Shown here one piece after another: positions 1,026-6,672 of a stretch of DNA of 6,672 bases. This DNA is from Candidatus Fermentibacterales bacterium (GTDB lineage Bacteria; Fermentibacterota; Fermentibacteria; Fermentibacterales; JAFGKQ01). Every line of letters begins with the position of its first letter. The stretch's first letter is position 1. The notes under the pieces are model-generated. The model was not told the DNA's origin. It made no database searches and worked only from the letters and a program-made list of their open reading frames with translations. A program made the position numbers and the translations under genes. The stretch lies in contig JAFGKQ010000026.1 of NCBI GenBank assembly GCA_016928495.1, forward strand, positions 1 to 6,672, given 5' to 3'.

Positions 1026-1988
1026 ACGGACAACGCCTTCAGCGTTCTGGGCGACAGGAACCGCCTGAGGATGTTCTGCGTGCTGTCCAGGGGTCCCCTC
1101 AACGTGAGCGAGATATGCCGCGTTCTCGGACTCCGCCAGTCCAATGTCAGCCATCACCTGAGGAAGCTGCTGGATGCGGGCCTCGTGGAGAGGCGAGGCA
1201 GATCGGGATGGGTCTACTACGAGCTGGATCGCTCGGAGCCTTTCGCCGTGGAGCTTTCCGAGCTCGTCAGCCGATGGGCGGAGAGGATACCCTGCCTGTC
1301 TTCGGACATGGCGGCTCTGTCGCTGTGCCACGAACGCAGGAGCGCCAGATCCAGGGAGTTCTTCGATCGAAGCGCGGTCGAGCAGCCCGACATCTCCGGC
1401 CTGCTTCCCGACCCGGCCGGCTATCTCGACGAGATGCTCGCCATGCTTCCGGTCGACGGTACCGTGGCGGAGCTCGGGTGTGGAGCCGGAAGGCTCCTCC
1501 TCGAGCTCGCGCACACATCACGCAGGCTCATAGGGGTGGACCAGTCCGAAGGCATGCTCTCCCGGGCCAGGCAACTGGTTGCCTTGGAGGATCTGGCAGG
1601 CAGGGCCGATCTCAGGCTCGGGCGGGTCGAGCACCTGCCCATGGCCGATGGGTCCGTCGACGCCGTCGTGGCGCACATGGTCCTGCACCACGTCCCCGAG
1701 CCGATCAGGGCCCTGCGGGAGGCCTGGCGGGTGCTCGGGCCGGCTGGAAGGCTGGTGGTCGCGGAGCTGACGGCCCACGGCAACGTCGCCTACAGGGAGA
1801 CCCAGGGAGACCTCTGGCCCGGGTTCGAGCCGGCCCAGCTCGAGGGCTGGCTCGGATCCTCGGGATTCGTGGACATCAACAGCATCGCCGTAGCCTCAGG
1901 CGCGGTGCTTCTGGTAAGCTCTCGCAAGGGAGGAAAGGAGGACCGACTTGTCCGGGATGGAGACAGGAAAGCGGGATCGGGAGCCTGA
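1026..1988 (+). CDS. ArsR-family regulator fused to SAM-dependent methyltransferase domain (SahR-like)
   Basis: The protein is 320 aa if started at ACG 1026. Residues about 1-70 form an ArsR winged helix: the family's LGDRNRLRM opening, then [22 protein letters not shown] as the helix-turn-helix (about 27-48) and a wing around [12 protein letters not shown]. Residues about 105-300 are a class I Rossmann methyltransferase: glycine-rich motif I AELGCGAG (148-155) and the acidic residue D172 in GVDQSEGM, which would bind the ribose of SAM or [13 protein letters not shown] follows, typical of the Methyltransf_11 type. Known background: SahR regulators of Proteobacteria have this same fusion, sense S-adenosylhomocysteine and control methyl-cycle genes including ahcY. 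The overlap with ahcY (41 nt) makes the same role likely here, as a repressor released by SAH. It may be a ligand sensor rather than an active methyltransferase; the sequence does not settle this. The fusion architecture is clear; the SahR assignment is inference from architecture plus neighbour. The ArsR homology continues upstream of the ATG at 1071, which is why the earlier start is chosen. Confidence 0.85.
1936..1941 (+). promoter_or_regulatory. Shine-Dalgarno AGGAGG for ahcY, deciding a TTG start
   Basis: AGGAGG, within AAAGGAGGA, lies six bases ahead of TTG 1948. The next in-frame ATG (1957) would be 15 bases away, too far. The site is inside the 3' end of the regulator's coding sequence, so translation of the two genes is probably coupled. 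Confidence 0.8.
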
Positions 1989-3393
1989 TCACAGGGTAGC
2001 CGATCTATCTCTGGCCGAGCTGGGTCGCCGTGAGATCGAGATAGCCGAGAGGGAGATGCCTGGCCTTCTGGCCATCCGCGAGAAGCATGGCCCCGAGAAG
2101 CCGCTGCAGGGACTCAGGATCACCGGGTCCCTGCACATGACGGTCGAGACATCCGTTCTCATAGAGACTCTCAGGCATCTGGGCGCAGACGTCAGGTGGG
2201 CAAGCTGCAACATCTTCTCGACCCAGGACCATGCCGCCGCGGCCATGGTGCGGGCCGGGGTGCCGGTCTTCGCCTGGAAGGGTGAGAGCCTCCGGGAGTA
2301 CTGGTGGTGCACCAGACAGGCGCTGACCTTCCCCGGGGGCACTGGTCCCGACCTGATAGTGGACGATGGGGGCGATGCCGCCCTCATGGTACACGCCGGC
2401 TACGACATGGAGGAGCACTACGAGCGGGAGGGGGCTCTTCCCGAGCTACCGTCGTGCTCCAGGGACGAGATGGAGCTCCTGAGGAACCTCAGGCAAGGCA
2501 TCGAGAATGGGGAGAAGGGTTTCTGGAGCAGGGTGGCAGCCGGTATCATCGGCGTCTCCGAGGAGACGACCACGGGAGTCAACAGGCTCTACCAGCGCCT
2601 GGAATCCGGTCGGCTCCTGTTCCCGGCCTACAACGTGAACGACTCCGTGACCAAGAGCAAGTTCGACAACCTTTACGGATGTCGTGAGTCGCTCGCGGAC
2701 GGGATAAAGAGAGCCACGGACGTCATGGTGGCCGGCAAGGTGGTTGTTGTCTGCGGCTACGGCGATGTTGGCAAGGGCTGCTGTCAGAGCATGCGAGGCT
2801 TCGGCGCGAGGGTCATAGTGACCGAGATAGACCCGATCTGCGCCCTGCAGGCCGCCATGGAGGGCTACGAGGTTTCCACGGTCGAGGAGGCGCTGCCCGA
2901 AGGGGACATCTTCGTCACTGCCACGGGCAACCTCTCGGTGATAACCTGCGGCCACATGGCAGCCATGAAGGACCAGGCGATCGTCTGCAACATCGGGCAC
3001 TTCGATCACGAGATCGATGTGGACGGGCTCGAGTCCCTGCCCGGGGTCGTGAAGACCGAGATAAAGCCCCAGGTTCACAGGTACAGCTTCCCCGACGGCC
3101 ACTCCATCTTTCTCCTGGCGGAGGGAAGGCTGGTCAACCTGGGTTGCGCGACCGGGCACCCCAGCTTCATCATGTCCAGCTCCTTCACGAACCAGTGCCT
3201 TGCCCAGATCGCTCTCGCTACGGAGCGCCCCGGGATAGGCGTGTACAGACTCCCGAAGAGGTTGGACGAGGAAGTGGCCAGGCTGCACCTGGAGAAGCTC
3301 GGAGTGAGGCTCACGAGACTCAGGCCGGAGCAGGCCGCCTACATAGGCGTGGACGTGGACGGCCCGTACAAGCCCGAGCACTACCGGTACTGA
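1948..3393 (+). CDS. ahcY: S-adenosylhomocysteine hydrolase (adenosylhomocysteinase)
   Basis: This cytosolic NAD-dependent enzyme splits S-adenosylhomocysteine into adenosine and homocysteine, relieving product inhibition of methyltransferases and feeding homocysteine back to methionine. The product is 481 aa and full length. Visible landmarks: SLHMTVET with substrate-site H63; [12 protein letters not shown] (about 88-99); VDDGGD (138-143); SEETTTG (204-210); [13 protein letters not shown] with K236, D240 and N241 matching the catalytic Lys, Asp and Asn; the NAD-binding GYGDVGKG (270-277); GHPSFIMS; and the C-terminal PYKPEHYRY whose Lys475 and Tyr479 reach into the neighbouring subunit's cofactor site in known structures. 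About 60 residues lie between VDDGGD and SEETTTG, some 40 more than in the human enzyme. This is the insertion known from plant and mycobacterial forms. The usual Cys just before the LHMT motif is Ser61, a mild change. TTG start chosen from the ribosome site. It overlaps the SahR-like regulator by 41 nt. Confidence 0.97.
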
Positions 3394-3448: not shown

Positions 3449-4291
3449 CTATCTCGTCATGAACCTGTCCATGGGGCTCATGATCCTCAGCGGGCCCCTG
3501 CCAACAGCCAGTTTCACGTAGGGTGTCATCATGGACGGCGTGCTCACTCCGAGCAGGCGCTGGAGGAGCTTCCTGTCCACTCCGTCCTCGAGAAGATGGA
3601 CCGCGAAGCTGTGCCTGAGCCAGCCGAGGGTGGCATGCCTGTCTACCCCGGCGGCTGCCAGCGACTCGGAGAATGCTCTCTGTATCGTGCGTGCCGATAT
3701 GCAGGACTTCCTGCCCCTGCCCGGGAAGAGGAAGGGAGACTCGGCGCTCCTCGTCCGGAGGTACTGGTCGAGAGTGCTCTCCGCGCTCCTGGCCAGTATC
3801 GTGTCCCTCACATGGCTGCCGCCACGGCTGTTGACGTGGATCACCATTGCCTTCCTGTCGATTCCTGCGAGCAGAAGGCAGGCCGCCTCTCCCACCCGAA
3901 GGCCGGACGAGTAGACGAGCATGAGAGCCAGCCGGTACCTGATGTCCTCCGTGTTCCCGATGATCGAGGAGATCTCCTCGCGGGTGAAGACGCCGTGAAG
4001 CGGGAGCCCCCTGGAGGGCAGCCCGGATTCGGGCAGCGGGTCCGCCTTCTTGAGGACCTCGGTGTAGAGGAACCTTATTGCGCTCTGGGCCTGGTTTATG
4101 TATGAGAGCGACTTGCGCTCTTCCAGGAGAGCGTTGAAGTAGCTCTCGAGCTGCGCGTGGGTAAGACCGGTCACCGAGTCACCGAAGGTCCTGGTGAGCC
4201 TTCGGATGTGGGAGAGGTAGCTGTTGGCGGTCCTGACGCTTCTTCCAGCCTCGATCAGGACGTTCCGCATCTCCTGCAGGAGGTCAGCCAT
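3449..4291 (-). CDS. Tyrosine-recombinase-fold protein with degenerate active site
   Basis: The protein is 280 aa with a SAM-like core-binding domain (about 1-90; the helical stretches RTANSYLSHIRRL and NQAQSAIRFLYTEVL match integrase N-domains) and a tyrosine recombinase catalytic domain (about 100-270). Box I Arg is present (SSGLRVGEA, R132), as are box II Arg (WLRHSF, R226) and the nucleophile Tyr in TPYVKL (Y258). Three other conserved positions are changed. The beta-hairpin that normally reads GKGxKxR reads RGGSHVR (156-162), so both Lys are gone. The HxLR His is Gly223. The LGH(S/T) His is Val249 in LLGVS. Length and N-domain are closest to integron-integrase or XerC-like proteins. Start: ATG 4291 has AAAGG (4301-4305) nine bases upstream; GTG 4294 is an alternative with six-base spacing. 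It is divergent from the kinase-like gene and convergent with ahcY. No att site, cargo or transposase is seen. It may still cut DNA poorly, or act as a DNA-binding protein. Confidence 0.85.
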   Translation of the reverse strand: MADLLQEMRNVLIEAGRSVRTANSYLSHIRRLTRTFGDSVTGLTHAQLESYFNALLEERKSLSYINQAQSAIRFLYTEVLKKADPLPESGLPSRGLPLHGVFTREEISSIIGNTEDIRYRLALMLVYSSGLRVGEAACLLLAGIDRKAMVIHVNSRGGSHVRDTILARSAESTLDQYLRTRSAESPFLFPGRGRKSCISARTIQRAFSESLAAAGVDRHATLGWLRHSFAVHLLEDGVDRKLLQRLLGVSTPSMMTPYVKLAVGRGPLRIMSPMDRFMTR

Positions 4292-4345
4292 CACCGGTCG
4301 CCTTTCCAGACTGCTCAGGGGCGTGTCCAGTCCGTTGGCCACTAT

Positions 4346-4375
4346 TAAATACCGCTGGCACCATCTATGTGTCAA
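4346..4375 (-). promoter_or_regulatory. Candidate promoter for the recombinase-like gene
   Basis: On the minus strand a perfect TTGACA (plus 4370-4375) is followed after 18 nt by TATTTA (plus 4346-4351, only 3 of 6). An overlapping TTTAAT (4344-4349) fits better (5 of 6) but at 20-nt spacing. This AT-rich core is the only one in the divergent region, so both genes probably use it. No matching plus-strand promoter was convincing. Confidence 0.35.
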
Positions 4376-4395
4376 ATGAGACGGAGGCCACCCCT

Positions 4396-4411
4396 GGCGC
4401 CGCCGGGTGCC
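4396..4411 (+). other. GC-rich hairpin in the leader of the sensor-kinase-like gene
   Basis: GGCGCC (4396-4401) and GGTGCC (4406-4411) form a six-pair stem, one pair being G-T, around the loop GCCG. It sits 20 bases before the chosen ATG. It has no T-run, so it is more likely a leader structure than a terminator; chance in GC-rich DNA is also possible. Confidence 0.25.
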
Positions 4412-4430
4412 CGCACTCTCCTGGTGTTGT

Positions 4431-6672
4431 ATGCTTGGTGAGATGAGCACTGGACCGGAGCGGGGCCCCGCGGCAGGGCCGCAGTCAGGACGGGCGGGAG
4501 AGGGGCGAGCACTCCCTCTCTCGATGGTGGCTCTCTGCGTCCTGGTCGCGCTGCTCCCGATCCTCGTCCATCTCCTCGACTCGAGCAGGCTCGCATCCTG
4601 TCTCGACGATGCCCTGCTCCTGAGGGCCGAATGCTGCTCGAGGACGCTCGCGCTCATGCTCGAGCGAAGCTCCATCGCGGCGCAGGCGATTCCCGCCATG
4701 CTCGCCGACGGGCATGCGGCCACGGAGCCGCATCTGGCCGCCGAGCTGCTGTCGGCAGTCGAGTCGCTGGGCCTGGTCGGGGCGGGAGTGCTCGTCGTCG
4801 GCTCAGAGCCGGACACGGTTTTCGCTCTGCTTTCCGCCCGGCACTCCGGGCTGTCGGAAGCGGACGGGCCAGGACAGAGCGCCTGGATCGAGGCTATGGC
4901 CTCGTCCGCTTCCCTCCCGGACCCGGACGGGCGTCGCCAGGGCTTGACTGTCGGCTCCGTCGTGGCGAGCAGCCACCCTTTCGACATGCCCACCTCCGGT
5001 GAATGGGATCTGTCCGCGGTGATCGCTCTGGACGCCTCGGGGCCGTCGAAAAGGCTGGCCGCAAGCGGACCATCGGCATTGCCTGTCGCGGCCGCGGGCA
5101 GCCTGGTTGCCGCAGGCGCCTGCCTGCTTCTCGTCCGGCTCTCACGGCTCGGGAGGAGACCGGGTCCCGCTCCCGACTCCGTTGCCCGTGCCGCCCCGCT
5201 TGATCCCGATGAGCATCGGGATGGAGGCAAGAGCTCCTTGCCCGAGCAGATCGAGAGCCTGCTGGAGTCCTCGACCATGGTCTCCCTGGTCGTCCTGGAC
5301 GGCGAGGGGGCTGTCCGCCGGGCGAGCTCTCCGGCTGAATCCCTGCTGGACACGATGCTCGACGACATGGAGGGGGATCCGCTGTGGTCGCTGGCCTGTT
5401 TCGGCGCGGGGGACAGGGGCAGGATCCGGGCCGGGGTGGAGTCCGGAGAGCACTGCAGCCTCGAGCTGAGCGTTCTGCACGGCTCCGGCGAGGAGAAGCT
5501 GATCGCTCTCTCCATGGATCCCCTGGACCTCTCGTCGGGCAGCACGGGATGCCTCGTCAGCATGATGGACAGGACGGAGGTGATGGAGGCCAGACGTGAG
5601 CGCGAGGATCTCGAGCAGAAGAGGCTGGAGGCGAGCAACGCCCAGGTCTTCCGGACGATCGCCAGGAGCCTGGCGAGCGATCTCAACAACCTGCTCTCGG
5701 GCGTCGTGGGTGCCGCCTCCCTGGGGGAGGCGCTCCACGAGGGCCCGGAGAGCAGTGACAGGCAGCGCTACAGGGCCATCCTCAACGCCTCGGAGAGAGC
5801 CTCGGTCATCTCGGACGAGCTGCTTTCTCTCGCCGACCACACCCGGCAGTCCAACAGGCCGCTGGACCTCTGCCAGGAGATCGAGGAGATCACCGAGACT
5901 CTCAGATCCGTAGTACCCGACAATGTCTCGCTGGATCTGGCGCTGGGCTCCGGTCTTCCTCCGGTACTCGCCGACAAGGTCGTGCTACGGCAGATGCTCT
6001 TCACCCTCGTGCTGGACTCCTGCAAGAACATGGAGGGCGCCGGGCAGATAACCGTCTCTCTGGAGGACGTGGCCGAGCCTGCTTCGGATATCCGCTTCTC
6101 CAGTGCCTGCAGAGCCCTGCACCGAGTGCACTGCGTTTCCCTGTCCGTGTCCGACACCGCCGAGCGTGAGGGAGGCCACGGGCCTCTCAGGGGATCAAGG
6201 CCTCCGGGCGAGCCGGGAGCCGTAGCGGGACTGGTTCGCAGCCTTCAGGGTTGCATGACGTCCACGAGCGGCTGGAGGGGCTCAGTGGTCCGCGTTCTCA
6301 TGCCGGCCACCGAGAGGCCTCGGGACGACCGTGACTCCCGGACAGCCAGGAGGACGAGCGGTGAAGGAATCGCCGTGCTCGTCGCGGAGAAGGACGAGAT
6401 CGTAAGGGAGACGGCCAGGGAGATACTGGAGCACTACGGTTTCAGGGTAGCGACGGCGGCCTCCCTGGATGAGGCTGCGGTGATCATGGAGCACGAGCGG
6501 TTCGAGGCTCTGGTCATGGACAGCGTTCTGACGGAGTCCGGTCCCGCAGAGCTGGTCAGGCTGTGCCGCGAGCGCTGGCCCTGGCTCTCGATCCTCTTCA
6601 GCAGCGCATTCGAAGCCGCCGATGATCTCGTCAGGTCGACCGGAGCGGACAGTGTCGGCTTTCTCAAGAAGC
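4431..6672 (+). CDS. Membrane-anchored hybrid sensor kinase-like protein (PAS-DHp-HATPase-receiver), probably kinase-dead, 3'-truncated by window
   Basis: The frame stays open to the right edge, giving at least 747 residues. Order: Arg/Gly/Pro-rich N-terminus; membrane helix 1 (about 30-49); a periplasmic region of about 165 residues matching no family I recognise, with Cys57, 68 and 69; membrane helix 2 (about 217-235); a weak PAS domain (about 274-383) ending in the usual D-x-T-E; a short coiled coil (384-405); DHp (about 405-480); HATPase-like region (about 490-625); receiver (about 647 on). The DHp motif reads LASDLNNLLSGVVG where relatives (HPK4, NtrB-like hybrids) have LAHDFNNLL, so the phosphoacceptor His is Ser416. 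The N-box Asn is Asp529 (LVLDSCKNM), the G1 box is DTAERE (575-580) instead of DxGxG, and no F or G2 box is visible. The receiver keeps Asp697, Ser725 and Lys747, but its acidic pair is EK. Start uncertain: ATG 4431 has GGTG four bases upstream; ATG 4443 and GTG 4407 are alternatives. Confidence 0.85.
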   Translation, partial: MLGEMSTGPERGPAAGPQSGRAGEGRALPLSMVALCVLVALLPILVHLLDSSRLASCLDDALLLRAECCSRTLALMLERSSIAAQAIPAMLADGHAATEPHLAAELLSAVESLGLVGAGVLVVGSEPDTVFALLSARHSGLSEADGPGQSAWIEAMASSASLPDPDGRRQGLTVGSVVASSHPFDMPTSGEWDLSAVIALDASGPSKRLAASGPSALPVAAAGSLVAAGACLLLVRLSRLGRRPGPAPDSVARAAPLDPDEHRDGGKSSLPEQIESLLESSTMVSLVVLDGEGAVRRASSPAESLLDTMLDDMEGDPLWSLACFGAGDRGRIRAGVESGEHCSLELSVLHGSGEEKLIALSMDPLDLSSGSTGCLVSMMDRTEVMEARREREDLEQKRLEASNAQVFRTIARSLASDLNNLLSGVVGAASLGEALHEGPESSDRQRYRAILNASERASVISDELLSLADHTRQSNRPLDLCQEIEEITETLRSVVPDNVSLDLALGSGLPPVLADKVVLRQMLFTLVLDSCKNMEGAGQITVSLEDVAEPASDIRFSSACRALHRVHCVSLSVSDTAEREGGHGPLRGSRPPGEPGAVAGLVRSLQGCMTSTSGWRGSVVRVLMPATERPRDDRDSRTARRTSGEGIAVLVAEKDEIVRETAREILEHYGFRVATAASLDEAAVIMEHERFEALVMDSVLTESGPAELVRLCRERWPWLSILFSSAFEAADDLVRSTGADSVGFLKK

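Follow-up and report, generated by a model that had tools for sequence, protein, structure and literature searches.

What is known of pseudo-histidine-kinases comes mostly from individual, well-studied proteins. DivL carries a Tyr in place of the phosphoacceptor His and keeps a recognisable ATP domain; ChpT and Spo0B have, to our knowledge, neither a sensor nor a receiver. The HATPase domain of RetS is degenerate, and the protein restrains GacS by phosphatase action, phosphate removal and contact (PMC5992135). In DivL of Caulobacter, the kinase fold has been repurposed to sense a regulator (PMC4211667), and ATP was not found in the Bergerat-like domain that accompanies the DHp domain of ChpT (PMC3433190). 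HisKA proteins such as CrdS depend for phosphatase activity on the residue four positions after the phosphoacceptor His (His+4; PMC3510030), and the DD2 position of receivers binds metal directly (PMC12632262).

Here we describe a hybrid pseudo-histidine-kinase of the Fermentibacterota, a phylum for which a literature search returned nothing joining Fermentibacteria with histidine kinases. The gene is syntenic, nearly always present in single copy and near-universal in the phylum, with the phosphoacceptor His kept or lost by lineage, and the family thereby offers a natural series on post-kinase function.

Results

Gene, distribution and neighbourhood

The window, i.e., the whole stretch of DNA that was analysed (6,672 nucleotides), is an entire contig of a draft genome (2.3 Mb, 337 contigs, 81% complete). 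A frame on the plus strand is open without a stop from 4431 to the contig end, and its 747 codons bear out the figure of more than 740 in a first-pass annotation of this DNA. The 3′ end of the gene lies beyond the contig, and the 747 encoded residues (4431-6671) represent the N-terminal part. Since an antisense frame (3449-5689, 746 aa) is also open in this GC-rich DNA, the open frame alone was weak evidence for a gene; the case for the gene rests on homology and synteny rather than on frame length. The layout is sensor-PAS-DHp-CA-REC (Table 1).

Table 1. Positions of the pseudo-kinase gene, its domains and key residues, and the adjoining recombinase gene in the window
Feature	Position	Strand	Basis
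Divergent gene for an Xer-like tyrosine recombinase, in conserved synteny with the pseudo-kinase gene	3449..4291	-	Synteny, alignment
Hybrid pseudo-histidine-kinase gene	4431..6672	+	Translation and orthologues; alternative start ATG 4446
N-terminal sensor region	4515..5144	+	Hydrophobic segments at about residues 29-50 and 216-238, positions inferred from translation
PAS-like domain, residues 282-384	5274..5582	+	PAS_4, E 5.9e-4
DHp (HisKA-like) domain, residues 392-470	5604..5840	+	HisKA sub-threshold; predicted structure
Ser416 (AGC) at the phosphoacceptor His position	5676..5678	+	Translation, alignment
Asn420 at the His+4 position	5688..5690	+	Alignment
Pseudo-CA (degenerate HATPase) domain, residues 470-640	5838..6350	+	Bergerat-type fold (structure prediction), no HATPase_c match
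Asp529 (GAC) at the N-box Asn position	6015..6017	+	Translation, alignment
Segment with SDG[TF]..P..L......I.R..G in other members, lost here	6150..6212	+	Alignment
Receiver domain, residues 649-747, incomplete at contig end	6375..6671	+	Response_reg, 4.2e-11 (Pfam)

A search of 60 genomes with the single sequence revealed six relatives at E values of 4e-84 to 1e-101, other hybrid-kinase-like matches reaching only ∼1e-27. Five of these first six relatives came from Candidatus Fermentibacteria or Hyd24-12, as found by a profile scan of named genomes; a single-protein scan of genome contigs gave no match, whereas a profile scan of the same kind did. With a 15-row profile, the gene was found in 40 of 42 Fermentibacterota genomes and in all 24 that were ≥90% complete and ≤5% contaminated. 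The window protein, itself one of the 15 rows, matched this profile at E 4.3e-220 over positions 3-720. Copy number was one per genome; the exceptions were G038, with two, and G012, where the match was split. Beyond the Fermentibacterota, a search of 385 genomes found no full-length relative and gave only partial matches at the level of ordinary hybrid kinases: the best match outside the phylum scored 4e-55 (query ∼236-733), compared with 1e-90 to 1e-274 for members. We refer to the window, G002, G004, G005, G006, G008 and G010 as tier A. The 13 readable members that belong to genera g7 and g8 make up tier B, and 19 members, most of them from g2, make up tier C. Tiers B and C each formed one clade with 100% bootstrap support, and tier A was unresolved as one clade. 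Two further copies were either broken genes or assembly errors: one lies in two adjacent frames (G041:C3, ∼210384-212449; L134) and the other is truncated at a contig end (G031:C363; L135).

The divergent Xer-like recombinase gene adjoins the pseudo-kinase gene in 20 of 21 loci, the contig ending at that point in the exception; in the window, it lies next to the gene. Downstream, the order is MgtC, patatin, ankyrin, HD (on the other strand), PHP, MreB and MreC, with some of these absent in some loci. This neighbourhood is common to all three tiers, and no other two-component gene was present among its identified genes. Of this neighbourhood, the window covers no more than the upstream part, its contig breaking off within the gene. 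The downstream run from MgtC to MreC is itself kept across the phylum (L076-L095). Positions 1071-3390 of the window encode a fusion of an ArsR-type HTH with a SAM methyltransferase and, after it, an S-adenosylhomocysteine hydrolase; this pair recurs in other genomes of the phylum. In the Xer-like recombinase (window, L076-L093 and L095), two Arg and the Tyr are kept; the HxxR His and the GH/W residue are missing in every readable member (LLG[IV] or MG[IV]), and both His are replaced by comparison with the archaeal XerC-like protein 4a8e. From these residues, it is possible that a pseudo-recombinase stands beside the pseudo-kinase.

Domains and predicted fold

In the sensor region, two hydrophobic segments enclose an inferred extracytoplasmic stretch of ∼165 residues, and conservation across tiers A and B is weak. 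The PAS_4 match of the window protein (20.5 bits) lies under the curated cut-off of 23.1, and some orthologues score higher. HisKA was likewise sub-threshold (Pfam, E 0.02). In structure models, which were computed for six sequences and were of moderate confidence (mean pLDDT 71 and 77), the DHp domain formed two long helices, with a fold matching the DHp-CA of CckA and ZraS. The best matches of the predicted DHp-CA fold were 5idj (Z 17.7), the NtrB CA domain 1r62 (Z 17.0), DivL (Z 16.8) and RetS (Z 16.4). ChpT and Spo0B were absent among the fold matches listed, which counts as evidence neither way.

Loss of catalytic residues

The first-pass annotation had read a Ser in place of the phosphoacceptor His in the motif LASDLNNLL (residues 414-422), and translation agreed. 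The window protein thus has Ser416 where an active HisKA protein would carry its phosphoacceptor. The His is present in 18 of the 20 tier A and B members, in the context HDLNN or HDMNN, the exceptions being the window and G010 (Arg). In tier C, the H-box is absent and 17 of 19 members have another residue in the aligned column; the His that G012 and G015 show there, without an H-box, was treated as an alignment chance, but may be a remnant. Parsimony on 29 rows required three changes for loss of the His. We regarded the loss as secure in the window and in tier C, but not in G010, since its Arg is one base from His and the draft is 77% complete. The His+4 Asn is present in all 20 tier A and B members, including the window, and in 1 of 19 tier C members; phosphatase action therefore cannot be a family-wide role. 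The window protein combines this phosphatase residue, Asn420, with a degenerate HATPase in a hybrid sensor, as in RetS. A transferring His of the ChpT and Spo0B type is absent from the window protein, but most orthologues of tiers A and B have one.

In the pseudo-CA domain, we recovered the reported Asp529 at the N-box and a G1 without Gly (DTAERE, residues 575-580), with F and G2 boxes unreadable. The G1, F and G2 boxes are not canonical elsewhere in the family: G1 glycines, F box and a GTGLG-type G2 were absent from every readable member, and HATPase_c gave no match at E ≤1 in the window or seven other members scanned (Pfam). The positive control, an ordinary hybrid kinase from the same phylum, matched at 4.5e-20. 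These results indicated that the broken ATP domain is ancestral. As the canonical G boxes were lost before the known members diverged, the family is not expected to autophosphorylate, although a protein with such degenerate boxes could in principle still bind a nucleotide. The other readable members share, with small variations, D-G-T/F..P..L......I.R..G in this region. The window protein alone among readable members lacks this motif, its loop being shorter by ∼11 residues. Nor do the other two frames across 6129-6260 contain the motif, so that a frameshift hidden in the G1 segment found no support.

The first-pass annotation had raised the question of whether Ser416, Asp529 and the broken G1 are conserved among orthologues. 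Ser416 is not, as 18 of the 20 members of tiers A and B have His there; nor is Asp529, at whose position the remaining six members of tier A have Arg, tier B has Asn (11 of 13) or Ala, and tier C has Tyr, Phe or His. G1 is broken in all, but in a conserved D-G-T/F form that the window has lost.

The receiver Asp and Lys are invariant in all 39 members, and in the window protein they are Asp697 (6519-6521) and Lys747 (6669-6671) by translation, both as first annotated. The conserved Thr/Ser position is, by alignment, Ser724 (6600-6602) rather than the Ser725 named earlier. This phosphorylatable set of Asp, Thr/Ser and Lys is accompanied by Glu653-Lys654 in place of the acidic pair DD1/DD2; the window receiver is therefore not fully intact, and the earlier proposal that another kinase phosphorylates it is weakened by Lys654. 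Nearly all of the 19 tier C receivers have Ala or Gly at DD2 but keep Asp, Thr/Ser and Lys, and these therefore look like pseudo-receivers by one residue.

Selection

By pairwise counting, no domain had a lower median dN/dS than the pseudo-CA in either tier B (0.11) or tier C (0.10). It stayed tight in tier C although the DHp domain had become the most relaxed (0.40). In tier A, DHp was tightest (0.18) and CA stood at 0.40, in pairs that are mostly between genera and near saturation; for the close pair G006/G010, CA dN was 0 at a dS of 0.14. The earlier description of the ATP boxes as eroded in this particular gene was thus not supported: readable orthologues all lack canonical G boxes, and the domain is under strong purifying selection. 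We fitted a branch-specific codon model to six taxa, an eight-taxon version having hit saturated branches with unstable fits; the sensor-region fit of the six-taxon model was not interpretable. For DHp+CA+REC, omega on the window branch was 0.22, not significantly different from the rest (2 delta lnL 1.3), and neutrality was rejected, though weakly because synonymous sites are saturated (2 delta lnL 4.1). A dN/dS below 1, proposed at the outset as a check, was found clearly in the family pseudo-CA (∼0.1 in tiers B and C) and less firmly in the window.

Discussion

Architecture, orthology, conservation pattern and family-level selection describe a protein built like a hybrid sensor kinase, but probably without kinase chemistry. 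Since it is a single-copy family in nearly every genome of the phylum, loss of the kinase part is mostly an old selected trait and not decay at this locus. We consider it probable (roughly 0.6) that the protein is a Fermentibacterota-specific, single-copy, non-autophosphorylating hybrid pseudo-kinase that acts by protein contact, possibly with phosphatase action, in the manner of RetS. The ATP domain without canonical G boxes would be retained for another role: a stimulus, either extracytoplasmic or acting on the PAS domain, would change the DHp/pseudo-CA dimer, and the pseudo-CA surface together with DHp would act by contact on a partner kinase or regulator. In proteins that retain the His+4 Asn (those of tiers A and B, the window included), transmitter phosphatase action may be added. 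The receiver may dock or accept phosphoryl groups. In the window protein, Ser416, the Lys at the receiver metal site and loss of the pseudo-CA loop would leave mainly contact or phosphatase roles. The partner, the direction of the effect and the phosphatase activity we infer. As a whole, the first-pass observation stood, apart from the Ser724 assignment and the receiver, which is not intact: the sequence supports a pseudokinase, and RetS provides a precedent that makes "scaffold or signal sink" a reasonable kind of function to propose, the phosphate-sink role being the weakest part for the window because Lys replaces the DD2 acid.

More tentatively, the phylum may keep this one syntenic hybrid pseudo-kinase with the degenerate ATP domain and its own motif as the main selected module, e.g., as a site for a partner or another ligand, phosphotransfer residues having been shed in separate lineages. 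The pattern of constraint, with a tight pseudo-CA and a DHp relaxed once the H-box is gone, indicates which surface to test. A single genome would have misled here: the "eroded" ATP boxes are an ancestral trait of the family and under selection, and special to this gene are only Ser416, Lys654 and the loss of the loop.

These three features could also be early steps of gene loss in a window copy that is decaying within an otherwise selected family. Its position as the sole readable member without the SDG[TF] loop fits this, as do its pseudo-CA omega of 0.28, for which neutrality was not rejected (2 delta lnL 1.1), and its being the member that departs most often from columns common to the other tier A and B members in REC (4/12) and CA (3/12). 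We nevertheless judge decay rather unlikely in view of the 747 open codons with codon-position GC resembling that of the neighbouring genes, the weak rejection of neutrality for DHp+CA+REC, an end branch (0.68) near that of G005 (0.60), and the retention of Asp417, Asn420, Asp697 and Lys747. That the Ser416 codon (5676-5678) or the G1 segment was misread or misassembled is hardly credible, even in a draft of 337 contigs: the family His codon (CAC/CAT) requires two changes to become AGC, so that a one-base error cannot explain Ser416, and neither alternative frame restores the missing motif. This disfavours the error that the first-pass annotation had named as a refutation.

Two other readings concern the family as a whole. 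It could be a membrane-bound histidine phosphotransferase of the ChpT/Spo0B/PhyT type, passing phosphoryl groups from one receiver to another by way of its DHp His, with a vestigial CA alongside; the window and G010 would then have lost the activity. The His in its HDLNN/HDMNN context in most tier A and B members beside a degenerate CA agrees with this, and ChpT and PhyT/PhyP set a precedent for such a pairing, PhyP being membrane anchored with a periplasmic sensor. The gene, however, stays in the same place where the His has gone (all or nearly all 19 tier C members, the window and G010), constraint in tiers B and C is strongest on the pseudo-CA, seemingly the part that a phosphotransferase could best do without, and ChpT- or Spo0B-type Pfam models found no match in the members scanned; we hold this reading to be improbable. 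That the protein is an ordinary active hybrid kinase with boxes too divergent to recognise is very improbable. The DHp-CA fold is kept overall in the models, and tier B keeps the N-box Asn; against this, the window has no phosphoacceptor, no readable member has a canonical G1, F or G2, and HATPase_c failed to match even at E 1 although the positive control matched.

The preferred reading, a contact-acting pseudo-kinase, can be set beside several described systems. RcsD resembles the window protein in having a pseudo-kinase domain without the phosphoacceptor His (PMC3762810), but its HPt domain does transfer, and its Rcs partners are known. DivL is also kinase-like and among the fold matches, but has no receiver of the family's type. 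ChpT and Spo0B share the DHp four-helix bundle, and their transferring His is essential to their role, which sets them apart from this family. PhyP/PhyT of the alphaproteobacteria share the membrane anchor, the extracytoplasmic sensor and a DHp with degenerate ATPase, but differ in the HRxxN motif, in lying at the locus of their partner PhyR and, as far as the portion of the source used here goes, in having no C-terminal receiver described (PMC5898713). The phosphotransferase model (ChpT, PhyT) fits those members of tiers A and B that carry the His, whereas the window, G010 and tier C do not conform to it. RetS of Pseudomonas aeruginosa differs in keeping its H-box, in having two receivers and in its known partner GacS, and the family in having lost the His in more than one lineage; no full-length sequence relationship between the two was found. 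RetS and the family are alike as membrane hybrid sensors with a HisKA domain, an HATPase without G boxes and a receiver, and by analogy RetS would be the closest working model.
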